Shown here one piece after another: positions 4,809-41,950 of a DNA stretch of 54,372 bases. Position 1 is the first letter of the stretch. Each line of letters starts with the position of its first letter. The notes beneath the pieces were generated by a model. That model was not told the DNA's origin and did not search any database. It was given only the letters and a program-made list of their open reading frames with translations. This DNA comes from Nitrospira sp. (GTDB lineage: Bacteria; Nitrospirota; Nitrospiria; Nitrospirales; Nitrospiraceae): NCBI GenBank assembly GCA_005116835.1, contig SWDM01000003.1, positions 121,303 through 175,674 of the forward strand, given 5' to 3'. Made by a program: the position numbers and the translations under genes.

Positions 4809-5912
4809 ATGGTCGTCGGGGTGCCTAAAGAAATCAAAGATCAGGAGTATCGTGTCAGCGTCACACCCGATGGAGTGCGGGCGTTGCGCCAGGCAGGCCA
4901 TGCTGTCTGGATTGAACAATCAGCCGGTATCGGTAGCGGCTACTCGGATGAGGACTACCGGGCTGCCGACGCTACCATAGCAGAATCGAAAGAGCAGCTG
5001 TTCCAAGAGGCAGCGATCATTGTAAAGGTCAAAGAACCGCTGCTTTCTGAGTGTCGTTTTTTCCGCCCTGGTCAGACATTATTCACCTATCTGCATTTGG
5101 CGTCCTTGCCGGACCTCACGAAGACCCTCCTAGAGGCCGCAATCACCGCGATTGCCTACGAGACGATCGAGGCAAAAAATGGCAGCTTGCCGATGCTCAG
5201 ACCGATGAGCGAAATCGCGGGACGCATGTCGGTACAGATCGGCGCGCACTATCTGGAAAAGACACAAGGAGGACGAGGGCTTCTCTTGTCCGGAGTGCCA
5301 GGCGTAGAGTCGGGAAAGGTCGTGGTGCTTGGGGCCGGCGTGGTAGGTACTGCAGCCACTCGAATTGCTGTGGGAATGGGTGCGCAAGTAACGGTAATCA
5401 ATCTCGACCTCGACCGACTCCAGGCACTCGATGAATTGTATGGTAGTCGAATTGTGACCCGTGCCTCCACACAAACTGCTATTGAGGAATCGGTGATGGA
5501 CGCCGATCTTGTTATTGGGGCAGTCCTCGTCCCTGGAGCTCGAGCGCCCAAGCTCGTCTCGCGTGAACTGGTAGCGCGCATGAAACCAGGAGCTGTGGTA
5601 GTGGATGTCGCGGTCGATCAAGGCGGCTGCTTCGAGACTACGAAACCCACCACCCATTCAGACCCGGTCTATCTGGTGAACGGAGTGCTCCATTATTGTG
5701 TTCCTAATATGCCAGGGATTGTTCCCCGTACATCGACCGCCGCATTGACGAATGTCACACTTCCATATCTCCTTCGTCTAGCTTCGCAGGGGGTGGAGGA
5801 GGCTGTGCGTGCAGACGCAGGATTGGCAAAAGGAGTGAACATTTTTGGTGGCAAGATTACCTGCCGAGGAGTGGCCGAAGCTCATGGCTTGCGTTTCGAC
5901 CCCCTATTGTAA
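4809..5912 (+). CDS. ald: Alanine dehydrogenase
   Basis: A 367-residue NAD-dependent enzyme that interconverts L-alanine and pyruvate plus ammonia. The N-terminus ([18 protein letters not shown]) is the family signature, with the substrate lysine and arginine. A Rossmann motif [18 protein letters not shown] lies near residues 175-192, and the [10 protein letters not shown] segment near the C-terminus is typical. ATG 4809 follows AAGGAGGAAGAG. In an ammonia oxidiser the enzyme may assimilate or release ammonium. The gene is transcribed away from the ferredoxin cluster and ends 38 bases before a tRNA gene. Confidence 0.95.
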
Positions 5913-5950
5913 GACAATCTCTTTTCGCTTCGGGGTTCTCCTGTTTTTGT

Positions 5951-6029
<79 letters not shown>

Positions 6030-6326
6030 CAATACTTTGTGCGCGCCGCCCGGTCATTTTCGTTTTATCGAACCTGACGCGGGTGATGATGCCCTTCAGT
6101 GTCTTCGTTTCCAATACCAAACAGACGTTGCTCGGCCTGGCCTCTATTCATGTATCGAGGCGACGGGATCAAACCCGATAGTATTATTTTTTCTACCCAA
6201 GTTTACTCTTGCCTCTTGTTCAATGTCGCGCGCACGGAATTGCAAAAGACGTGACGCTTCAATAGAGGTGTGAGAGTATCCGTTCGTTAGATAAACAGAC
6301 TGGTCATACACAGTCTGTTTGAGCCT

Positions 6327-6623
6327 ATGACAGAGCCAATTGAACCGACAACCCTCCGCGCAAAACTGTTGGTGACGGGAAAGGTCCAAGGAGTCGGGTA
6401 TCGAGCATTTGCGGCACGAATCGCGTCGCAACGAGGCCTTCGCGGAGGCGTCAGGAACATCGATGATGGGAGAGTTGATCTTGAAGTCGAAGGCCCCAAG
6501 GCCCGGATCCTTGATCTGATCAAAGAGCTAAAGATTGGGCCACCGGCATCGCGAGTGACAGCTGTTGAAGTGGAGTGGAGTCCTGCCACAGGGCGATTGG
6601 TAGACTTTAACGTGTGGTACTAA
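6327..6623 (+). CDS. acyP: Acylphosphatase
   Basis: A 98-residue acylphosphatase that hydrolyses carboxyl-phosphate bonds. The family motif [12 protein letters not shown] (catalytic arginine in GVGYR) lies at residues 18-29. The second motif, [17 protein letters not shown], keeps the catalytic asparagine. The N-terminus is about eight residues longer than usual. It is followed after 28 bases by the sigma factor gene. Confidence 0.92.
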
Positions 6624-6651
6624 AAGCAACCGGCTAGGAGTGACGGAGCGT

Positions 6652-7620
6652 ATGGCGCGAGGGGGCGAGGAGTTACACGATCTGAGTGAGGCGCGCAGAC
6701 ACGCCGTCGACCATGACGACGAGGACACTGCCACATCGTCACGAATGGATGAGACGTCCGTGGACGATGACAAATCAAGTCGCCGCTCTGAAGGGCTGGA
6801 TACTCTCAAATGCTACTTGCGAGAGATCCGTCATTCGACCTTGCTGACCTTTAAACAGGAACAACAGCTGGGCAAGAGGGTGATGGCGGGCGACGAGCAG
6901 GCGCGCCAAGAAATGATCGAGTCGAATCTACGCCTGGTAATCAGTATCGGCAAACGATACATGCATCGCGGGTTCCCCTTTTCCGATGTCATCGAAGAGG
7001 GCAACCTTGGGTTGATCAAGGCCGTTGAAAAATTCAACTATAAGCGCGGATTTCGCTTCAGCACCTATGCGTCCTGGTGGATCCGGCAATACATCGAACG
7101 AGCGATTATCAATCAAGGAAAGCTCGTGCGGTTGCCCGTGCATGTGGTGGAGCGGCTCAATCGTTATCTCGGAAAAGTAGAACGGCTTGTCCAGGAACTC
7201 GGACGAGAACCGACCGCAGCGGAAGTCGCAGCAAAGATGAAGACGACGGACGAAGAGGTCTTAGATCTCAAGCAAGTGGTCCGAACAGTCTGTTCATTGG
7301 ATAGTCCTATCAACGAAGGTGGGGATACCTTCTTGCGCGATGTGATCGAAGACCCTTCCTGCATCTCTCCAGCCGATACGACCGAAGGAGTCATGCGCCG
7401 GGCGGAGATGATGGAGTGGGTGCAGGAGTTGCCTGAAAAGGAGCAAACTGTTATCATGTCCCGGTTTGGGCTCGATGGAAGTGAGGCCAAAACTCTGGAA
7501 GAGATCGGACGTGAAATGGGCTTAACCCGTGAGCGGGTCCGACAAATTGAGATGGCCGCCTTAGCGCGATTACGCCATACCATCGAACGAAGAACCATGA
7601 CACAAGCCGACTTACTCTGA
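6652..7620 (+). CDS. RNA polymerase sigma-70 family factor, group 2 (RpoD/RpoS-like)
   Basis: About 322 residues with a short acidic N-terminus instead of region 1.1. Region 1.2 ([10 protein letters not shown]) is followed by region 2 with the -10 recognition helix around [17 protein letters not shown], region 3, and region 4 with the helix-turn-helix ending in [11 protein letters not shown]. The size and missing region 1.1 suit a stress or stationary phase sigma of the RpoS type rather than the primary sigma. ATG 6652 has GGAG upstream; GTG 6640 is possible. It sits in a run with acyP and apt. Confidence 0.9.
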
Positions 7621-30200: not shown

Positions 30201-30225
30201 ATCACCATCAGAAAAGGAGGTGCGA

Positions 30226-30651
30226 ATGTCGAAGCGGAAGGTCGGAACATCGGTCGTAATGATGGTGTCTATCCTGATCCTTTCAGGAGGGATGGCGTAC
30301 TCTGAGGAACCAGCGCCATTGCCTGAAGTCCCAGCTGAATATGCCGACAAAAAAATGCCGGCTGGCTTTTTGACTGATCCTAAGGTCCTCGCAGAGGGAG
30401 CGCTGATTTACACCGGCGAGGTTAATCCGCAGGTCAACTGTGCCAGCTGCCATGGCAAGGATGGTAAACCAGTAAAAAAAGGCGCTCGGGATTTTCGGGA
30501 CAAAGCTCAAATGGGCCGTATGTCTGACGCCTTCTGGTTCTGGCGAGTGTCTGAAGGGGTTCCAAAAACAAAAATGAAAGCCTGGAAGTCGCAGCTGTCA
30601 GAAGAGCAGATCTGGCAGGTTATTGCGTATGAGCGTCAGTTTTCGAAGTGA
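30226..30651 (+). CDS. Periplasmic monoheme cytochrome c of the nirK cassette
   Basis: A 141-residue cytochrome c with a signal peptide (residues 1-26). The heme motif CASCH is at 72-76 and a likely axial methionine is in KTKMKAW near 117. ATG 30226 lies after a full AAAAGGAGG. It is first in a four-gene cassette, 45 bases before NirK copy 1, and is the obvious candidate to donate electrons to the nitrite reductase pair. Location between an IS end and the nirK genes suggests it moved with them. Confidence 0.88.
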   Translation: MSKRKVGTSVVMMVSILILSGGMAYSEEPAPLPEVPAEYADKKMPAGFLTDPKVLAEGALIYTGEVNPQVNCASCHGKDGKPVKKGARDFRDKAQMGRMSDAFWFWRVSEGVPKTKMKAWKSQLSEEQIWQVIAYERQFSK

Positions 30652-30696: not shown

Positions 30697-31677
30697 ATGC
30701 CTATCAGTTTTTCGCGTAGCGTACGCACTGTCGCATTACTCAGTGCAGTGATCGCTGCTCCGAGCCTTGCTATCAGTGCAGGGTCTGTGTCGGCGGCAGA
30801 GACCATCAAAGCCCAACTAGCGACCGCACCCAATGTTCCCCCTCCCATCACACGAACCCAGCCAGCCACCGTCGTGGTCAACCTGGAAGCGAACGAGTGG
30901 GTCGGTCCGCTTAGCGACGATAACAACTATGAGTTCTGGGGTTTTAATAAGAGCGTGCCAGGGCCCATGATCCGCGTCATGGTGGGCGATACGGTTGAAA
31001 TCCGTTTGAAGAACCATAAAGACAGCAAGGAAGCTCACAATATCGACTTCCACGCAATCACGGGACCAGGCGGCGGGGCTAGCCTGCTCAATAGCGAGCC
31101 AGGGCAGGAGAGCGGGGGAAAGTTTAAGATGATCATTCCTGGCATCTTCTTGTATCACTGCGCCACCGCATCGCCATCCATTCCCGAGCACATTGCGAAT
31201 GGCATGTACGGCACGATCGTAGTTGAGCCAGTGGGTGGGCTGAAGCCAGTCGATAAAGAATTCCAGATCATGCAAAGCGAGTTTTACACGAAAGATGGCG
31301 AGAAGGGCGAGACCTTGGAGTTTTCATTCGAAAATGGGTTAGACGAGCGCCCCTCCCATGTTGTATATAACGGCAATGCGAGCTCGCTGGTCAAAAAACC
31401 TCTTCGAGCCAAGGCCGGAGACACCGTTCGGATTTTCTTAACCAACGCAGGGCCCAACTTTGTCGACTCTTTGCAGATCCTCGAACAGCCGTTCGACAGG
31501 GTGTACCCCGAGGGTTCTTTGACCTCACCGCCTGCGGAGAATGTCAAGGTTACCAGGATTCCTGCAGGTGGCGCTGTCATGGCAGAGTTTAAAGTTAAGG
31601 CGGGCACCTATACCATTGTTGACCCAGTAAAGGATCGTAAGGACAAAGGCGCCCTTGGCCTGCTGAAGGTAGACTGA
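30697..31677 (+). CDS. nirK: NirK paralogue 1: copper nitrite reductase-like, half active site (type 1 copper complete)
   Basis: A 326-residue two-cupredoxin protein with a signal peptide, similar to NirK of ammonia oxidisers. Using A. faecalis numbering, it keeps type 1 copper ligands His95 (here H114), Cys136 (C155), His145 (H165) and Met150 (M170), plus Asp98 (D117) and type 2 ligands His100 (H119) and His135 (H154). It lacks catalytic His255 (Q260, in DSLQILEQ) and the third type 2 ligand His306 (P310, in IVDPVK). It cannot build a normal homotrimer site. AAAGGAGG precedes the ATG. Its C-terminal tail is lost (see vestige). Confidence 0.92.
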   Translation: MPISFSRSVRTVALLSAVIAAPSLAISAGSVSAAETIKAQLATAPNVPPPITRTQPATVVVNLEANEWVGPLSDDNNYEFWGFNKSVPGPMIRVMVGDTVEIRLKNHKDSKEAHNIDFHAITGPGGGASLLNSEPGQESGGKFKMIIPGIFLYHCATASPSIPEHIANGMYGTIVVEPVGGLKPVDKEFQIMQSEFYTKDGEKGETLEFSFENGLDERPSHVVYNGNASSLVKKPLRAKAGDTVRIFLTNAGPNFVDSLQILEQPFDRVYPEGSLTSPPAENVKVTRIPAGGAVMAEFKVKAGTYTIVDPVKDRKDKGALGLLKVD

Positions 31678-31743
31678 AGGTAGCCTAGAGAATCCGCCAA
31701 CTAGGCCATCTACAAAGGCCTGAAGTACTCTGCAGGCAGGTGA
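31678..31743 (+). pseudogene. vestigial C-terminal tail of NirK paralogue 1
   Basis: Reading on in frame after the TGA at 31675-31677 gives two further stops but also N-stop-AIYKGLKYSAGR and a final TGA. The second paralogue ends NPALFKGL at the same place. The tail was therefore once coded and has been cut off by nonsense changes. Confidence 0.65.
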
Positions 31744-31790
31744 TCAGGATGATGACCGTCACAGAGTAATCCAAAATTAAAGGAGGCGTC

Positions 31791-32795
31791 ATGTCCAAGA
31801 GTTTTGTGCGTAGCGTGCGTCATGCCGGATTGATCAGCGCATTGGTCATGGCTCCGTGTCTTGCCATCAATGCAGGCCTGGTGTCGGCGGAGACCATCCA
31901 AGCCCAACTGGCGAAGGCACCCAATGTTCCCGCTCCCATCACACGAACCCAACCCGCCACCGTTGTGGTCAACCTGGAATCGTCCGAGTGGGTCGGTCCG
32001 ATTAGCGACGATAACAATTATGAGTTCTGGGGTCTTAATGGATCCGTGCCAGGGCCCATGATCCGCGTCATGGTGGGCGATACGGTTGAAGTCCATTTGA
32101 AGAACAAGAACAGCAGCAAGCGCAGTCACAACCTTGACTTCCAAGCGGTCAGTGGCGGAGCCGCCCTGGTCAATGCGGAGCCCGGGAAGGAAGCCCAGAT
32201 ACAGTTTAAGGCCACCAAGCAGGGCCTCTTTGTCTATCGCTCCTCCACTGCAGCGCCAGCCGATATCCAACACATTGCGAGTGGCATGTACGGCTTGATC
32301 TTAGTTGAGCCGGTTGGTGGGCTGAAGCCTGTCGAAAAAGAATTCCAGGTCGTGCAAAGCGAATTTTACATGAAAGATGGCAAGAAGAACGATACACTGG
32401 TTTTTTCGAGTCAAAAGGTGACAGACGCGGATGCTTCCTATGTCGTACATAACGGCCATATGACCGCGCTGGTCAAAATTCCACTCCGATCTAAAGTGGG
32501 AGAGACCGATCGATGGTTCTTTGGCAATGCTGGAATCAACTTTGACTCTTCGTGGCATGTCATCGGCGAGATGTTAGATCGGGTGTGGCCAAACGGTGAC
32601 GTATCAAAAGCGCCAATTGAGAGTATCCAAAGCACCTTGGTGCCGCCAGGTGAAGCGACCATAGGAGAATTTAAAGGCGAAATGCCCGGCACGTTTGTTT
32701 CGGTTGACCACTCAATCTTCCGCATCGAGAAAGGCGCCCTTGGCCTGCTCAAGATAGATGGTCCAACTAATCCTGCCCTCTTCAAAGGGCTGTAG
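31791..32795 (+). CDS. nirK: NirK paralogue 2: copper nitrite reductase-like, complementary half active site (type 1 copper lost)
   Basis: A 334-residue paralogue, about half to two-thirds identical to copy 1 and with the same signal-peptide style. It keeps His255 (H256, in SSWHVIGE) and His306 (H307, in SVDHSIF), the residues that a NirK subunit gives to its neighbour's type 2 copper. It has lost His100 (Q118), His135 (R150) and the type 1 Cys136 (S151), while His95 (H113), His145 (H161) and Met150 (M166) remain. Alone it should bind no type 1 copper. AAAGGAGG precedes the ATG, and the frame is intact, arguing against a pseudogene. Confidence 0.92.
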   Translation: MSKSFVRSVRHAGLISALVMAPCLAINAGLVSAETIQAQLAKAPNVPAPITRTQPATVVVNLESSEWVGPISDDNNYEFWGLNGSVPGPMIRVMVGDTVEVHLKNKNSSKRSHNLDFQAVSGGAALVNAEPGKEAQIQFKATKQGLFVYRSSTAAPADIQHIASGMYGLILVEPVGGLKPVEKEFQVVQSEFYMKDGKKNDTLVFSSQKVTDADASYVVHNGHMTALVKIPLRSKVGETDRWFFGNAGINFDSSWHVIGEMLDRVWPNGDVSKAPIESIQSTLVPPGEATIGEFKGEMPGTFVSVDHSIFRIEKGALGLLKIDGPTNPALFKGL

Positions 32796-32913: not shown

Positions 32914-33444
32914 ATGAAAAGCAGAAGAAGCAAATGGGTGAGCCGCATCGGGGCTGTGGGGCTGGCTGTCGGATGCCTGGCGCTGGCTGGTTTGGGCTCA
33001 GGAGCCACGCCTGCCGAAGCGTCTGACTCACCGACGGGTAAGCAGGATGCGTCTCGGTTTGTCGTGCTGCAAGCCTTGAACAATGAGGCGGCGCAGGACA
33101 ATGAGACGGGGCTGGTGTGGGAAACAATTCCGGCGAGATCGAGGACGGTTTGGAAAAATGCCGCCGGTATCTGTGCGAAAAAGACCGTCGGTGGCAAAAA
33201 GGGCTGGCGCTTGCCCACAGTTAAAGAGTTGGCGACCCTGGCGGATCACAACATATATCCTCCCCCAGCCCTCCCGACTGGCCATCCTTTTTCCAACATC
33301 GAGTTTTTTGGCTATTGGACGGCGACGGAGCACGAAGACTATTCGATGGTCGCGTGGGACGTCAACTTCGACTATGGCATCGTGGGCAACGATTTTAAGA
33401 CCAACACGAACTTTGTCTGGTGTGTGCGCGATGACGCGAAGTAG
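32914..33444 (+). CDS. Exported DUF1566 (Lcl C-terminal domain) protein
   Basis: A 176-residue protein with a signal peptide (residues 1-37). The mature part holds the DUF1566/Lcl pattern: TGLVWE, then CAKK...GWRLPTVKELATL, YWTATEHE and a final FVWCVRD. Two cysteines probably form a disulfide. These domains occur in surface or envelope proteins of unclear function. It follows NirK copy 2 by 118 bases and closes the cassette. ATG 32914 follows GGGGAGGG. Confidence 0.85.
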   Translation: MKSRRSKWVSRIGAVGLAVGCLALAGLGSGATPAEASDSPTGKQDASRFVVLQALNNEAAQDNETGLVWETIPARSRTVWKNAAGICAKKTVGGKKGWRLPTVKELATLADHNIYPPPALPTGHPFSNIEFFGYWTATEHEDYSMVAWDVNFDYGIVGNDFKTNTNFVWCVRDDAK

Positions 33445-35067: not shown

Positions 35068-35670
35068 TTACTCTTCCTTCTCTTTCTTGTCCACCTTCAA
35101 CACCGCCTTGCCTTGCGCCAAACTGGCATTGAGATCATGCTCCGGCACTTTCTTATGAACCAGGTTTTGATGGCAATCGATACAGGTTGCCCCCTCTGTT
35201 TGCATCTTCTGGTGAGCTGCCTTCGCCGACGCCCCCGGGGGCTTCGTATTCTTGTGGCAGGCCCGGCACGTCATGCTGTCCCAACCCTTCAGCTTCATGC
35301 GCGCTCTGTAGGCTGCCTCCGGCCGTCGCTCATTGAACTTTTCAATCGTAGAATAGTCGACGGTGAACTCCTCTATCAGGAACGGCACTCCATCTACAAC
35401 GTGGGTCCATACCGCCAGAGGAAAGTTTGCCAAGCCTTGGGGCACATGACAATCCTTACAGCCTGGGTCGGCGCCGAGCGCTCCCCAATGCGAGGACTTT
35501 TTCAGTTCCTCATACGGATAGGTCTCTGAATGGCAACTTACACAGAATTCGGTCCTGGATATTGCAGCCTCGCCGCCGAATACGACGACGATCGATCCGA
35601 CCGTAAGAACTGCGCCGAGAAGCAAGGCGCCACCAGACACACTTAGGTAATTCCTTAGCCCCCCCGCCAT
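35068..35670 (-). CDS. cycB: Membrane tetraheme cytochrome c, NapC/NrfH family (cytochrome cM552)
   Basis: A 200-residue quinone-interacting cytochrome with one N-terminal membrane anchor (about residues 13-33) and four heme motifs: CVSCH (43), CKDCH (71), CRACH (135) and CIDCH (163). In ammonia oxidisers this protein takes electrons from cytochrome c554 and reduces quinone. It overlaps the stop of cycA and ends the hao operon. The C-terminal tail is lysine/glutamate-rich. Confidence 0.92.
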   Translation of the reverse strand: MAGGLRNYLSVSGGALLLGAVLTVGSIVVVFGGEAAISRTEFCVSCHSETYPYEELKKSSHWGALGADPGCKDCHVPQGLANFPLAVWTHVVDGVPFLIEEFTVDYSTIEKFNERRPEAAYRARMKLKGWDSMTCRACHKNTKPPGASAKAAHQKMQTEGATCIDCHQNLVHKKVPEHDLNASLAQGKAVLKVDKKEKEE

Positions 35671-36389
35671 TACTCCTCCTTGCCGATCTCAGCCGGCTTG
35701 GCATCCTTTTGGAACTCTTCATGGAACTTTGGGGTAGGCGGACCTTCAAACGTACCCGCTAGCTTGAAGTGTTCATGCATAGCCTTGTTGTTACGCACCA
35801 TCTTCTCAAAGTCGAACGTATACTTCTTGTCTACAGTGGGGGTGAAAGGCGTGTAGGGTTTCTTAGTCCCTTTCCACCCAGAGCCCTCGTAGTTCAGGTG
35901 GCACGAACTGCACTTCTCAATGAACTCAAACTCTTGTCCGGCTTCCGCGAGAGACTCACGTGGCGTAACCTTTTTCGACTTTTCAAAGGCCTCGCCTGCC
36001 TTACGGTGAATCTTTCGGTAATCTGGACCGGCCCCATGACAAGACTCGCAGCCTACACCGATCAAGAACTTGTCCGGCTCAGAAATTTCATATCCACCCT
36101 CTACACCGAATCCAGTTACGTGGCAGCCGATGCAATCCTTGTCTTTGGAAAAGTCTTTCTTAGGGTCAAGTTTTGCTTTGACCATGGCTGCATTCTTTTC
36201 TTTATTCCTGTCGGCTTTGAGCGAGTCAACCGCTTTGGCATGGGCGGTCTTGAGCCAGGAGTCGGCCTCACTTTTATGGCAATTACTGCATTTCTTTCGA
36301 CCCTCGAATGGCGTCTCAGCAGAAGCGCTTCCGGCCATAGTTGCGAATACGACTACAGCTGCTAGTGCAAATACCATAGGATACTTCAC
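35670..36389 (-). CDS. cycA: Tetraheme cytochrome c554
   Basis: A 239-residue periplasmic cytochrome with a signal peptide (residues 1-24, ending SASA) and four heme motifs: CSNCH (34), CIGCH (86), CESCH (114) and CSSCH (160). It accepts electrons from hydroxylamine dehydrogenase. The start is a GTG at 36389, placed four bases after AAAGGAGG; the ATG at 36404 would lie inside the ribosome site. Upstream is a 121-base gap to haoB, room for a second promoter or a processing site. Confidence 0.93.
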   Translation of the reverse strand: MKYPMVFALAAVVVFATMAGSASAETPFEGRKKCSNCHKSEADSWLKTAHAKAVDSLKADRNKEKNAAMVKAKLDPKKDFSKDKDCIGCHVTGFGVEGGYEISEPDKFLIGVGCESCHGAGPDYRKIHRKAGEAFEKSKKVTPRESLAEAGQEFEFIEKCSSCHLNYEGSGWKGTKKPYTPFTPTVDKKYTFDFEKMVRNNKAMHEHFKLAGTFEGPPTPKFHEEFQKDAKPAEIGKEE

Positions 36390-36510
36390 GGGGCCTCCTT
36401 TCATCAGAAAAACTATGCGTGGTTGTACTTTGAAAATCGATTATGCGTTACTCTATCGAGAATGTGTAAGATTTACAATAACGGTTCATCCACCTCGGCA
36501 ACTCAATGAA

Positions 36511-37560
36511 TCAGGTATTCGATGACTGCGCAGACGGAATCTTATACACCCAATAGCCGCCCTCTTTATGGACCAGTTTGACGGCTTTGAAATCGAGAGG
36601 TACCGAGGTCGTCATGGGCAGCATCTGTGCAAGCAGCGTGTCCTTGCTCTTATCATCGGTCAGGAAGTAGGCGCGCGCGTTCTCCTCCGAGAGTCCGTGC
36701 ACCGTTTGAGAGGTGTAGTTGTTGTCCAATAGCCAACGCTTCACCATCGCGCTTAGTCCATGCACATCACCGCCCTTCAAGGGAAAATCCTTGTAGGCGA
36801 CACCGATGCGATCAGGGCTCATCAGCCCGAGTTTATAGAGGTCCGAGACGTGAACCACGACGTAGGCTTCGCGCCCGCCAGTCAGTTCACGCAGTATCGC
36901 TGCACCCTCTGTTGGTTCTGACGACAACGCAACAGCAAAGCGTTGGAATTTTCCCTTCTCTTCTGCGCTTGCCGTAGAGCCCCAGAACTCGCGTTCATAT
37001 TTGTCGATCGCCTCGATTCGTGGCCGCCAGAGCGACGGTGCAACAAGCGGTCCACTGAGATGGGAGGTGAACACCGTCTCTAACCCCGTCAATAGCTGAA
37101 TCTGACGTGAAGTGTCCCACCAGGCGAGTATGACAGCGTCTTTCGGCACATGCTTCGCAATCGCTGGTGCCAACAGGGTCAGCTCGGAGAGCTTATTGTT
37201 GACGAAAACCACTGGTTCGCCGGTGTAATTTTCCCAGGCGAGCATAACGGGCTTTGTATTTCCGCGTCGGGCAAGATAGCCTACAGCTACCGGTTCGTCC
37301 ACACCGTCTACGATAATCTCTTGCTTGCTGATGCCAAGGTCAGGCCACGCGTCTAGTCCGAGCTTGCTGAACTTATCAATACCGCCCTCTTCCACCAAGC
37401 GGTAATGATACGGCGCTGGACCTGGACTGAACCATAAAAACGCAAACCAACCGAGCATAAGTAGTCCTCCCGCCACTAGGACTATTCCTAGCGACGGGAG
37501 GACTTTACTACTTGGTCGCGTCAGCGCTGCTTCCATCGTTTGCGCTGCGCCCGTTGTCAC
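36511..37560 (-). CDS. haoB: HaoB, membrane-anchored protein of the hydroxylamine dehydrogenase cluster
   Basis: A 349-residue protein with one N-terminal membrane segment (about residues 22-45) and a long periplasmic domain without heme motifs. Its position directly after haoA, with an ATGA overlap, and before cycA identifies it as HaoB, a conserved companion of haoA whose role is not settled (assembly or anchoring is suspected). The periplasmic part begins [13 protein letters not shown]. Confidence 0.85.
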
Positions 37561-39266
37561 CGCTGGTTCTTCTTACGTCTGCTCCATCCGGCGAGCGCGA
37601 GGGTGCCGGTCAGCAACAATCCGCCGCCCACGCTGCCGAGCGTAATCTTCCCGTCCGTGCTATCGAAATCCAGCAGGCCACTGGTCTTGCTCTGCTCGAG
37701 CTTGGCCACCCGCTCCATCAGCATCAACCTATCCTTAAGCTTGGTGTCCTCGTCCATGATTTCGACATAAGCTCGGTTCATCGCTGCCCAGCCGACAGTA
37801 TAGGTGTAGCCTGGGTATTGATGCGCGAGACTGACGTGCAGTTGCACAAGATGGTCCTCAGCCATTTCGAAGAGCTTGAGCTCGATCGCTGTAGGGCTGT
37901 TGCCCTTCGACCAGTAAATCTGCCAAAACTGTTCGAATTGAGCCTTAGCCGGCGCTGGAGGGGCCGGCCGGTTGTTCTTCTGACCGGTCAGGAGTCTCGC
38001 ATCATACTGCTTACGGACGACGTTGTGCGCCTCATCGTATTTATCGAGTCCTGAAGAGGTGCCGTTGTCCATAAACTCCAAGTATGCGCGCGCGAAACGT
38101 TCAGAGTGGCACGTTGTGCAGGTCTTGACCCACGCATCCAGACGCTTCTGGCCCCATTCACCAAATACAGGTTCTCTAATGCCAGGCACGAAGGGATAGT
38201 TCGCCCAGCGGACCTTACGCACCGTGTTGTGGCTGAATTTGCCCTGGTACTCCATATGACAGCTCTGGCAGGTAGGGAAGCGCTGCCCGCCCTTGACCAC
38301 TGCATCCTTGAGCTGGATATCCCAGTTCCATTGATTTTTAGAGGCCTGGTATCCCAACCCATGCTGTGACCCGTTGTAGGCTTCCCAGTTGTTGTGATCG
38401 GCGCCGCTGTGGCAGGTACCGCAGGCTTCAGGCTTGCGGGCGTTAGCTACAGAGAATTCATGCCTGGTATGGCAGTTGTCGCACTTGTTCTGGTTGGTGT
38501 GGCACATTGTGCAGCCGTCAGCGATCTCGCGCTGCGACATTCCGGCGTAGATATCCGTCTCAACGTTGGCCCTGTAATCAAGCGCGTGCGACGGCCGGCC
38601 CCTCGGCCACTGGTTCTTCGGCCATAAGATCGTGTCGCGCTCGGACTGCTGCTCAGCGTATTCTTGTAGATGGCAGTTGCCACAGACGTCAGCAGTTGGC
38701 ATCTTGATGTCTTTGCGATGGTCAGCCTTATTCTTGGTATTGATGTCCACATGGCAATCGATGCAGCCGACTTCCTTCAGCGATTCGGTGGCGCCGAGCT
38801 TGCCCAGGGAACGGAGGTTCTTCTCGACGTCATCCAGCTTCGCTTTCTTATAATAGGTGTCATCCTTGGGGGTGAGCTTGCGAATCTTGTCAAGATTGGA
38901 GTGGACACTCTTTTTCCAAAGTGCCACCCACCCAGGCGACTCATCGGTGTGGCATTTCACGCACTGCTCGCGTGTCGCGATATCTTTGACCGATGTTGGT
39001 GGCGTGTAGAACGACATTGGATCGAAATACTTGCTCATTGGGATCGGCTCCCAATACTGGCCGTACTGCCCTTTCCCTGCGCCTCTGCCTGGATCCATGT
39101 AGCGCTTCGTCAACGCCTCATGCAAGTCCTTGGGGCTGGCGGACCGATCAAGGTTCAACGCCTGGTAGGTTTCAGTGGGGACGCTGGGAAAGTCTGCTTG
39201 AGCTGTTGCCGCAAGCAACACCCCGCAAACTACCAGGCCGCATCTCACCCAGAATTTTTTGGTCAT
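37557..39266 (-). CDS. haoA: Hydroxylamine dehydrogenase (octaheme HAO)
   Basis: A 569-residue precursor that oxidises hydroxylamine (to NO or nitrite) in the periplasm. The signal peptide ends TAQA (24). Eight heme motifs are at Cys102, 168, 195, 252, 262, 282, 333 and 383; the fourth (CTMCH) falls where the P460 heme lies in Nitrosomonas. Tyrosines at 484, 487 and 489 ([12 protein letters not shown]) lie where the cross-linking tyrosine is expected. A C-terminal membrane segment (about 545-561) anchors it. ATG 39266 follows GGGAGG; the longer start at 39281 is less likely. Confidence 0.97.
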
Positions 39267-39397
39267 ACTAAAGCCTCCCACAAATTGATAATCGCCCTAT
39301 TTATAAGTCAAACCACTCTAATGATCGTACGTGCGTATGTGCCGGTATTCATATCTGCTATCGTTTACATTAGCGGTCATAATTAGTGTGCCGCGCT

Positions 39398-39563: not shown

Positions 39564-40019
39564 CTACGGTCTTTCACGATCGATGACGACGGTGACCCCA
39601 TCTACACCAGGCTTCACTGGTTGACTTATCCCCTCCAAGTCTCCACTTTGCGGCATAGCCTGGCCGGACTTCGACAGACGAGCCACAATCACCACCATTG
39701 CGACGTCGGAAAGTGTTCTGGACGGCATCATGCTGTTCGAGTCATCGAGCCGGAACGTAAAGGGCAAGTCTTTCTTCGTCGCCCGCATGATCGCCACCGG
39801 CATCGGTGGGCCATTCGTCTCACGGGCAAACACAAATAACGTGTCTGTTGCGGACCCCTTGCCTGCAAGGCTCGGCGCAATACTGACCTTGCCGCTGATC
39901 GCAAGCGACTGTCCAGACGACTTCGCCGGCGCTGCCGGATCCGCATATCCAGTTCCCATTGAAATAAGCAGCACGCCGCAGACCAGCAGACTACACCTCA
40001 GCCAAAATTTATTGACCAT
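39564..40019 (-). CDS. Secreted stand-alone Ig_CycH-like domain protein
   Basis: A 151-residue protein made of a signal peptide (MVNKFWLRCSLLVCGVLL, about 27 residues to GYAD) and one domain that closely matches the C-terminal domain of CcmI (motifs TDTLFVFARE, PMPVAI, KDLPFTFRLDD, SKSGQAMPQSGDLEG). The signal peptide resembles that of HaoA ([18 protein letters not shown]). CcmI's C-terminal domain binds apocytochromes during heme attachment, so a role as soluble chaperone, perhaps for HaoA, is inferred. ATG 40019 has GGGGAG seven bases upstream. Confidence 0.82.
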   Translation of the reverse strand: MVNKFWLRCSLLVCGVLLISMGTGYADPAAPAKSSGQSLAISGKVSIAPSLAGKGSATDTLFVFARETNGPPMPVAIMRATKKDLPFTFRLDDSNSMMPSRTLSDVAMVVIVARLSKSGQAMPQSGDLEGISQPVKPGVDGVTVVIDRERP

Positions 40020-40093
40020 GTTCATACTCCCCGTTTGTGAAAACACATCCCTACGCTCTTGAGTTAACTTATCGCTTAGCGAACAGCGCGAAT

Positions 40094-40122
40094 ATATCTC
40101 AACTTACATCTGAAAATGTCAA
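40094..40122 (-). promoter_or_regulatory. possible promoter of the stand-alone Ig_CycH gene
   Basis: Leftward TTGACA (40122-40117) is followed after 17 bases by AGATAT; the overlapping GATATA with an 18-base spacer is an alternative. The -10 box is weak, so this is tentative. Confidence 0.35.
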
Positions 40123-40273
40123 GACAATAGGGCGCACATCTTGCCACTGCTTACATTAAGTGAGTTCGATGCGATTTCTCGACAAGCCATCGCTAGATGC
40201 GGGCTAAAGCCTCTCTGAAGGGTCGACGATTATTGTGTGGCTTTAAATGATGGTCCTGTTGGACTTCCAGGCA

Positions 40274-41950
40274 CTACGGACGTTCACGATCGATGACAAT
40301 GGAGATTCCATCCACTCCAGATTGTATCGGCTGACTCGTCCCCTCTAGATCTCCACTCTGGGGCATGGCCTGGCCAGACTTCGAGAGACGGGCGACAATC
40401 ACCACAGGCCCTGCACTGGAAAGTTTTCTGGAGGGCATCGGGCTAGTCGAGTCATCGAGCTGAAACGTAAAGGGCAAATCTTTTCTCGTCGCCCGCACGA
40501 TCGCCACCGGCATCGGTGGCCCGCTCATCTCGCGGGCAAAGACAAACAATGTATCGGTCGCGGATGCTTTGCCGGCTAAGCTCGGCGCCACAGTCACCGT
40601 ACCTCTGATCGCACGTGGTTGTCCCGTCTGGCTGGCTAGCGGAGCCGGCGCTGCCGATTCTTTATTCATTCTCTCATGATCGATGACGACGGTGATCCCC
40701 TCCCCCCCAGACTGTATCGGCTGACTCGTCCCCTCCAGATCTCCACTTTGCGGCATTGCCTGACCGGACTTCGAGAGACGAGCCACAATCACGACTGGCC
40801 CGGCACTGGAGAGTTTCCTGGACGGCATCGGGCTGGTTGAGTCATCGAGCTGAAACGTAAAGGGCAAATCTTTCCTCGTCGCCCGCACGATCGACACCGG
40901 CATGGGTGGGCCGCTCGTCTCGCGGGCAAACACAAATAATGTGTCCGTGGGAGAGGCTTTACCCGCCAAGTCCGGCGCCATTGTCACCGTGCCCCGGATC
41001 GTACGCGGCTGCCCGGCTTGCCCAGTTGGCTTGACAGGAGCCTGCGCTTCTGCAAATGCCGGCATCGCCTTTTGACCGCCGCCAAGCTGACTCTGAGCTT
41101 CGGCAATGGCCGCCATCAGCTGCTGCGTCATCTCCGGATCTACGTCCGCAGGAAGGTTTGCACGAGCTTGCTCCCAGTCCTTCGCTGCACGAGCAAAGTT
41201 TTTTCGGTTGAACGCCACGGTCCCAGACAGCATCAGCGCTTTCACATTACGCGGATCGAGCTTCAATGCCTGCTGAATCAAGACTTCGGGTTTCCCCTCC
41301 AACTTGCGACCATTCACAACCCCCAAGGTATCCGCATAGTCCGCGAGTAACTGGGCGTCATCAGGAATCAGTGTCACAGCTCTCTCGTAAATCGAAGCGG
41401 CCTCGGCGTAGCGCCCCAGCCCCACGTATGAGCGCGCGAGCAACCCCCATCCCACACCATCATTCGGATTCTGCTCCATTTTCTGCTTGAGCCGCTCAAC
41501 CAATCCTTCCAGCGCGTCAGCGGACGAATGCGCATCTTCTGGCCCCCCTTGCGCAGACAGCGAGCCAGCGGGTGGCTGCGTCATGGCGAGCGGATTCCCA
41601 AGCTGCCAGTAGAGCGCCACACTGAAGGCCGGCACAATAATGGCCAGGGCGAACGCTACCGGGCGACTATGAACCTGCCGCGGGGTCTTTGTAGGCGTCG
41701 TCTCAGTCGTGCCCGTTTCTTCCAGGAGACGGCGTTCGAGCTCACGCCGTGCCTGCTGATACAATTCGTCCGTGAGCACACCGTTTGCCCGATCCTGCTC
41801 GAGTTCTGCAAATTGCTGTCGGAAAATAGATAAGGTCTTCTCCTGCTCTCCCGTTACAACCTTGCTGGTACGCCTGACCAACGGCCACAACAAAAGACCA
41901 AGAATGAGAAGAGTCATACCCGAGGCGATACACCAGAATAGGATGGTCAC
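40274..41950 (-). CDS. ccmI: Cytochrome c maturation protein CcmI with two tandem C-terminal Ig_CycH-like domains
   Basis: A 558-residue membrane protein of the heme lyase complex. Two membrane segments (about residues 3-22 and 98-118) bracket a cytoplasmic loop, TPR-type repeats lie at about 160-290, and two copies of an Ig_CycH-like domain follow at about 315-425 and 445-558. The usual protein has one such domain. The two copies are nearly identical in DNA, which points to a recent tandem duplication. It is the last gene of the ccm operon, overlapping ccmH by four bases. Confidence 0.92.
   Translation of the reverse strand: MTILFWCIASGMTLLILGLLLWPLVRRTSKVVTGEQEKTLSIFRQQFAELEQDRANGVLTDELYQQARRELERRLLEETGTTETTPTKTPRQVHSRPVAFALAIIVPAFSVALYWQLGNPLAMTQPPAGSLSAQGGPEDAHSSADALEGLVERLKQKMEQNPNDGVGWGLLARSYVGLGRYAEAASIYERAVTLIPDDAQLLADYADTLGVVNGRKLEGKPEVLIQQALKLDPRNVKALMLSGTVAFNRKNFARAAKDWEQARANLPADVDPEMTQQLMAAIAEAQSQLGGGQKAMPAFAEAQAPVKPTGQAGQPRTIRGTVTMAPDLAGKASPTDTLFVFARETSGPPMPVSIVRATRKDLPFTFQLDDSTSPMPSRKLSSAGPVVIVARLSKSGQAMPQSGDLEGTSQPIQSGGEGITVVIDHERMNKESAAPAPLASQTGQPRAIRGTVTVAPSLAGKASATDTLFVFAREMSGPPMPVAIVRATRKDLPFTFQLDDSTSPMPSRKLSSAGPVVIVARLSKSGQAMPQSGDLEGTSQPIQSGVDGISIVIDRERP

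Follow-up and report, generated by a model that had tools for sequence, protein, structure and literature searches.

Two tandem nirK genes beside a hydroxylamine dehydrogenase cluster raise the question of whether one copper enzyme can be divided between two paralogues, neither of which holds a complete active site of its own. They lie in the window (the whole 54,372-nucleotide stretch of Nitrospira DNA analysed here), and the genome to which it belongs, 3.94 Mb in size and 99% complete, contains amoA/amoB together with haoA, haoB, cycA and cycB, which marks it as a comammox Nitrospira. On the plus strand, a small c-type cytochrome gene, nirK copy 1 and nirK copy 2 follow one another and adjoin the hao cluster, which in the window is encoded on the opposite strand:

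30220..30651, plus strand: c-type cytochrome, exported, mono-haem (CASCH), 143 aa, Pfam Cytochrome_CBB3/Cytochrom_C, directly upstream of the pair
30697..31677, plus strand: nirK copy 1, NirK paralogue with two cupredoxin domains, 326 aa, open frame, AF2 pLDDT 72
31791..32795, plus strand: nirK copy 2, NirK paralogue with a C-terminal tail, 334 aa, open frame, AF2 pLDDT 73
35068..39281, minus strand: cycB, cycA, haoB and haoA (hydroxylamine dehydrogenase cluster), NCBIfam haoB_nitrify, Cyt554 CycA

The two nirK genes are separated by 113 bp on the same strand, with no terminator-like site seen between them, and the coordinates together with a AAAGGAGG motif 5' of the ATG of each copy bear out the preliminary description of both frames as open and preceded by strong ribosome sites. 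The hao cluster adjoins the pair in most pair-bearing loci, and the upstream position of the cytochrome gene is conserved both in pair loci and ahead of intact lone nirK genes (L099, L116, L118, L119); the encoded cytochrome probably serves as redox partner to the type 1 copper in copy 1. Downstream of copy 2, in the window (32914-33444) as in most pair-bearing loci, lies a gene for an exported Lcl_C-domain protein (PF07603), which possibly belongs to the same unit as the pair. Elsewhere in the window (39564-41950), a ccmI-like gene encodes a domain in two tandem copies (repeat APSLAGKASATDTLFVFARE), and this duplicated domain is also encoded singly at 39564-40046. A third, more distant NirK-type gene (L162:3878-4825, G000:C16; 32% identical, ligands all intact) is located in the same genome directly downstream of amoAB (amoA L162:6874-7767, amoB 5612-6877) and is followed by a small globin-like gene.

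Single-chain AF2 models of the two copies, resting on shallow alignments (21-23 sequences, pLDDT 72-73), were compared with solved structures using VIA-align, which gave Z 35.0 for copy 1 with AniA (5tb7_B) and Z 34.8 for copy 2 with 1kbv_A. The AniA structural alignments span 288-294 residues and take in two cupredoxin domains in each copy; as modelled, both copies carry the full two-cupredoxin NirK fold. The TIGR02376 profile scored 236.9 bits for copy 1 and 245.5 bits for copy 2, both below the equivalog cut-off of 296.3, in a scoring that covered these two copies only, without intact lone relatives as a yardstick. The best solved relatives of both are class II NirK enzymes, namely AniA of Neisseria gonorrhoeae, the core domain of the Ralstonia pickettii enzyme and that of Bradyrhizobium ORS375 (6the), which have the same fold over the mature chain (Z about 35, 43-48% identity) and share the ligand positions, the type 1 site of copy 1 being canonical. 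The known enzymes are nevertheless homotrimers with three identical sites, whereas here no chain has a full type 2 set.

This difference becomes apparent at the individual residues, which are numbered as in A. faecalis through alignment to the solved NirK 6the. In NirK, His306 and His255 are supplied by the neighbouring subunit, and Cys136-His135 wires the type 1 to the type 2 copper. In the homotrimer, the ligands of the type 2 copper are His100, His135 and His306 at about 2.0 Å, with His255 some 4 Å off (PMC4937782). The alignment gave H95, D98, H100, H135, C136, H145 and M150 followed by Q255, L257 and P306 for copy 1, and H95, D98, Q100, R135, S136, H145 and M150 followed by H255, I257 and H306 for copy 2. 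Hence, the residues earlier read as kept and lost were recovered in both chains: the type 1 ligands, D98, H100 and H135 present in copy 1 with Gln and Pro at 255 and 306, and His255 and His306 present in copy 2 with Gln, Arg and Ser at 100, 135 and 136. The motifs are encoded as follows, all on the plus strand:

31036..31053, plus strand: copy 1 H95-N-I-D98-F-H100, protein 114-119, conserved intact in every copy 1 sequence
31156..31206, plus strand: copy 1 H135-C136...H145...M150, protein 154-170, conserved intact in every copy 1 sequence
31474..31482, plus strand: copy 1 Q255-I-L257, protein 260-262, in place of H-x-I, with Q and L fixed in 17/17
31624..31626, plus strand: copy 1 P306, protein 310, replacing the type 2 ligand His, fixed in 17/17
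32142..32144, plus strand: copy 2 Q100, protein 118, replacing His (relatives: Q/G/S/T), followed by a 3-residue loop deletion
32238..32243, plus strand: copy 2 R135-S136, protein 150-151, replacing His-Cys (relatives: Q/R and S/P)
32556..32564, plus strand: copy 2 H255-V-I257, protein 256-258, with H and I invariant in 18/18
32709..32711, plus strand: copy 2 H306, protein 307, invariant in 18/18

The type 1 ligand set His-Cys-His-Met is complete in copy 1 and incomplete in copy 2, and the full type 2 set (three His with D98/H255) is found in neither chain alone; the copies complete it jointly. Frameshifts or misread codons in the motifs were ruled out, as the identical substitutions occur in independently assembled MAGs. 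The preliminary description was silent on the Leu at 257 and the missing C-terminal tail of copy 1, on the loop deletion of copy 2, and on a further feature of copy 2, which keeps every type 1 ligand except C136, namely H95, H145 and M150, as well as D98. The kept residues (H113, H161 and M166 in protein numbering, with Asp98) are invariant despite the loss of the cysteine, and may represent a residual metal site or have a structural role.

Extending the comparison to relatives, a family search of 175 genomes located the tandem arrangement in two genus-level groups, with both copies readable in 17 genomes and 18 copy 2 proteins in all, one genome having copy 2 only. The pair genes always share one strand, with a gap of 55-113 bp (17 genomes). 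Every copy 1 reads H-D-H-H-C-H-M / Q-L-P (17/17) and every copy 2 reads H-D-[QGST]-[QR]-[SP]-H-M / H-I-H (18/18), position 136 being Ser except for Pro in one relative. The residue pairing that had been proposed for a search of other Nitrospira genomes was thus recovered in all 17 complete pairs and in both groups, each pair consisting of paralogues that lack opposite halves of the interface site (17/17). By comparison, close lone NirK relatives are intact at all ten positions in 7/7 cases, and lone homologues across the phylum, mostly from outside the family, in 39/40. As judged from these alignments, the residue split exceeds chance, because the pattern holds in 17/17 pairs against 7/7 and 39/40 intact lone genes. 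The one exception, L159 (G451:C92), keeps the type 1 ligands and carries D98A, H100Q, I257L and H306N; this is probably a protein with type 1 copper only, and it illustrates how a lone gene looks once the type 2 site is gone. Parts of both half-sites are lost in it, which sets it apart from copy 1 and copy 2 alike. In a search with P0002 of 396 genomes of the phylum, only single nirK genes were found outside the family, except in G182, which has two intact genes on separate contigs. The same losses in a lone gene had been named in advance as evidence against a shared site: 7/7 and 39/40 lone homologues are intact and L159 shows a different set, but one genome (G096), a MAG with a deletion scar at the locus, has copy 2 alone.

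The distribution of losses over the core of the protein was examined at 85 positions that do not vary among lone relatives and outgroups. Of the 46 core positions in domain 1, eight are lost in all copy 2 sequences and two in copy 1, the copy 2 losses including H118, H150, C151, A152 and N164 together with the partial deletion of the loop after position 100. The fixed domain 2 losses of copy 1 are mostly at the active site (H260Q, I262L, G263E, E264Q/K, P302A and H310P in P0001 numbering), and the domain 2 core losses of copy 2, likewise seven in number, are remote from the ligands. At the C-terminus, every copy 1 ends in LLKV(D/E) and lacks a tail of about 11 residues, which is present in copy 2 and in every lone relative. 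Counting lost sites alone gives p of about 0.01-0.02, and the argument for the split therefore does not rest on counting. Because the clade is young (copies within it are 81-96% identical, and in domain 2 of copy 2 no variation is seen at 72% of positions), a single invariant residue counts for little as evidence, and the residue losses amount to one evolutionary event per copy, unreplicated.

Both copies are under purifying selection, with pooled dN/dS of about 0.23 for copy 1 and 0.22 for copy 2. A split-site model makes an independent prediction here, namely that each copy conserves the half that it contributes, so that constraint crosses over between the domains. The values by domain were 0.19 (domain 1) and 0.345 (domain 2) in copy 1, against 0.293 and 0.236 in copy 2, with little difference in lone genes (0.215 and 0.238). 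The copy-by-domain interaction was significant by permutation (p = 0.0012 for dN, 0.011 for dN/dS) and the corresponding ratio of ratios had a bootstrap interval of 1.18-4.74, while the domain 2/domain 1 ratio of copy 2 taken by itself had an interval of 0.48-1.31, which spans 1.

On the strength of these residue patterns, it is likely that the two nirK genes encode an obligate hetero-oligomer that has a single wired type 1/type 2 site, formed at the junction of copy 1 with copy 2, and the two proteins probably function only as a mixed complex. In the proposed course of events, a NirK homotrimer would have undergone gene duplication and then reciprocal loss, yielding one hetero-oligomeric copper enzyme. 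By homology with NirK geometry, the assembly would be a trimer with the copies present as 2+1 or 1+2; the residues examined offered no basis for choosing between 2:1 and 1:2 stoichiometry. The sole complete interface would be that between domain 1 of copy 1 and domain 2 of copy 2, which would unite the full set of type 2 ligands with the Cys136-His135 wire, while the reverse copy 2/copy 1 interface would have no type 2 ligands. From this geometry, a 1+1+2 or 1+2+2 trimer would contain one catalytic site, the remaining interfaces being structural. Electrons would be relayed among the neighbouring c-type cytochrome, the type 1 centre of copy 1 and the single type 2 copper, and the reaction would be the interconversion of nitrite and NO. 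A catalytic shared site predicts that each partner keeps its full half-site, D98, H255 and I257 included. The claim that neither copy works alone and that one wired interface site is restored is borne out in part, with good comparative support: the 17/17 pattern in two genus-level groups, co-inheritance, purifying selection and the domain crossover agree with it, but copy 2 without copy 1 in G096 counts against obligate pairing, and the H95, H145, M150 and D98 of copy 2, superfluous to the simple model, count against the heteromer and are left unexplained by it.

The strongest competing account takes copy 1 as a type 1-only carrier or a homotrimer with an altered (2-His) copper site and copy 2 as a separate non-redox scaffold or binding protein, with the complementarity incidental. 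The complete type 1 site of copy 1, the existence in the phylum of a lone type 1-only homologue (L159) and the set of residues in copy 2 that a heteromer does not need all speak for it. Nonetheless, a type 1-only copy 1 would have no need of the D98 and H100 that it keeps, L159 having lost D98, H100 and H306 together; copy 2 preserves its H255/I257/H306 half whole while positions 100, 135 and 136 drift; selection crosses over by domain; and the genes are co-inherited and co-transferred. We therefore regard two separate proteins as improbable. Joint assembly for regulation or for new binding (NO, hydroxylamine or electron storage at HAO) without a catalytic shared type 2 site would agree with a position beside haoAB-cycAB, with co-transfer with that cluster as described in PMC9714041 and with the conserved three-ligand type 1 remnant of copy 2, but we consider it very unlikely, as each partner holds exactly one half-site including second-sphere D98, H255 and I257, which is what catalysis at a shared site predicts.

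The history of the genes bears on whether the two copies act as a unit. Copy 1 and copy 2 each form a clade with support of 100/100 and the lone genes one with 93/84, and the tree leaves unsettled which two of these three clades are sisters. Between the two copies, the distance matrices are correlated (r 0.90), and G019 clusters with the other genus in both copy trees, from which it follows that the copies travel together. Intact lone nirK genes (L099 Baikal-deep-G158, G003, G005, G010, G015, G021, G023) are 57-70% identical to the two copies and have the same upstream cytochrome and all ligands; they differ in being single genes with a full site, with hao located elsewhere in G015 and not found in L099/G033, G003 and G021, and probably resemble the ancestral state. 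In L099, a genome of a sister genus that itself has no hao, the order is cytochrome, single intact nirK and ccm genes, and in the pair-bearing genomes of the window's group a second nirK and the hao cluster stand between the cytochrome and ccm.

The pair is also subject to loss. Its presence in every hao-bearing relative was ruled out, as G099, G124 and G017 have none, and in four further hao-bearing genomes (G005, G010, G015, G023) nirK is lone and intact; since some hao-bearing genomes do without it, the pair is not essential to comammox. In G096 (CG24B), where only copy 2 is present, a stretch of about 3 kb with the cytochrome gene and copy 1 has given way to an insertion-sequence-like end of about 110 bp (L091, 9822-10000), which resembles the start of a transposase, presumably of IS1182 type; the absence of copy 1 could be a real loss, recent decay or an assembly effect in a MAG. 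In CG24C (G002, L103, 9745-13517), one deletion fuses the cytochrome gene with the final third of copy 2 and a second removes haoA, haoB, cycA and most of cycB, so that either ammonia oxidation was lost together with the nirK pair or the deletions are an assembly artefact. In G099 (L114, 10429-11554, on a 488 kb contig), a peptidase gene directly follows haoB, and cycA, cycB, the cytochrome gene and both nirK genes are missing. These deletions point either to instability of the locus or to difficulty in assembling it. Decay of both copies into pseudogenes that persist through linkage to hao, with another intact NirK-type gene present beside amoAB (L003/L162), would fit the hao-bearing genomes without the pair, the missing copy 1 of G096 and the loss of most of both copies in CG24C, but is highly improbable given frames open in 17 genomes, dN/dS of about 0.2, retained signal peptides and ribosome sites, and invariant ligands in the retained half-sites.

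By gene content and synteny, this is the locus described by Palomo et al. 2022 (PMC9714041), who found nirK in duplicate next to hao in comammox genomes of clade A2 and in several of clade B, treated the duplication, synteny and transfer with hao, inferred horizontal transfer of the nirK pair with hao and called this co-transfer intriguing. The searched text of that paper makes no mention of missing ligands, complementarity or a heteromer; the nirK duplication beside hao is already known and the residue split is apparently unreported. The openly searchable literature yielded no NirK heteromer and no residue loss in comammox NirK, in line with the initial view that no NirK with this split had been described. 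A precedent for the principle is found in yeast PPCDC (Hal3/Vhs3 and Cab3), where a homotrimer with interface sites has given rise to a heterotrimer whose paralogous subunits are individually inactive and share one site (PMC4626798). That single site in a heterotrimer is proven biochemically, in a eukaryotic flavoprotein of unrelated fold.

What the complex would do beside hao can be addressed through the setting of the genes. NirK has been proposed as the oxidiser of HAO-derived NO (discussed in PMC8115096). Because the pair stands beside hao and a further intact NirK-type gene stands beside amoAB, a dedicated role in the hydroxylamine pathway, such as NO to nitrite, is plausible, and nitrite reduction is a putative physiological direction of the pair. 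The presence of that further gene would free the pair for a specialised function. The more specific reading, in which a heteromeric NirK with one site per trimer, co-transferred with hao between comammox clades, would be a dedicated NO-to-nitrite oxidase and the missing third enzyme, is an unlikely one that we put forward tentatively.

Should the heteromer be real, it would be the first known NirK with such a division and a bacterial counterpart of yeast PPCDC; to our knowledge, no other NirK has its active site divided between two obligate paralogues. It would also offer a living case of a symmetric metalloenzyme turning asymmetric, a route that has been proposed for ceruloplasmin-type multicopper oxidases. 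As the pair lies beside hao and, according to PMC9714041, is inferred to move with hao by horizontal transfer, the finding would bear on which enzyme, if any, converts HAO-derived NO to nitrite. Finally, because each copy alone is predicted to be inactive, counts of nirK genes would be unsafe as a measure of nitrite reductase capacity in these genomes.
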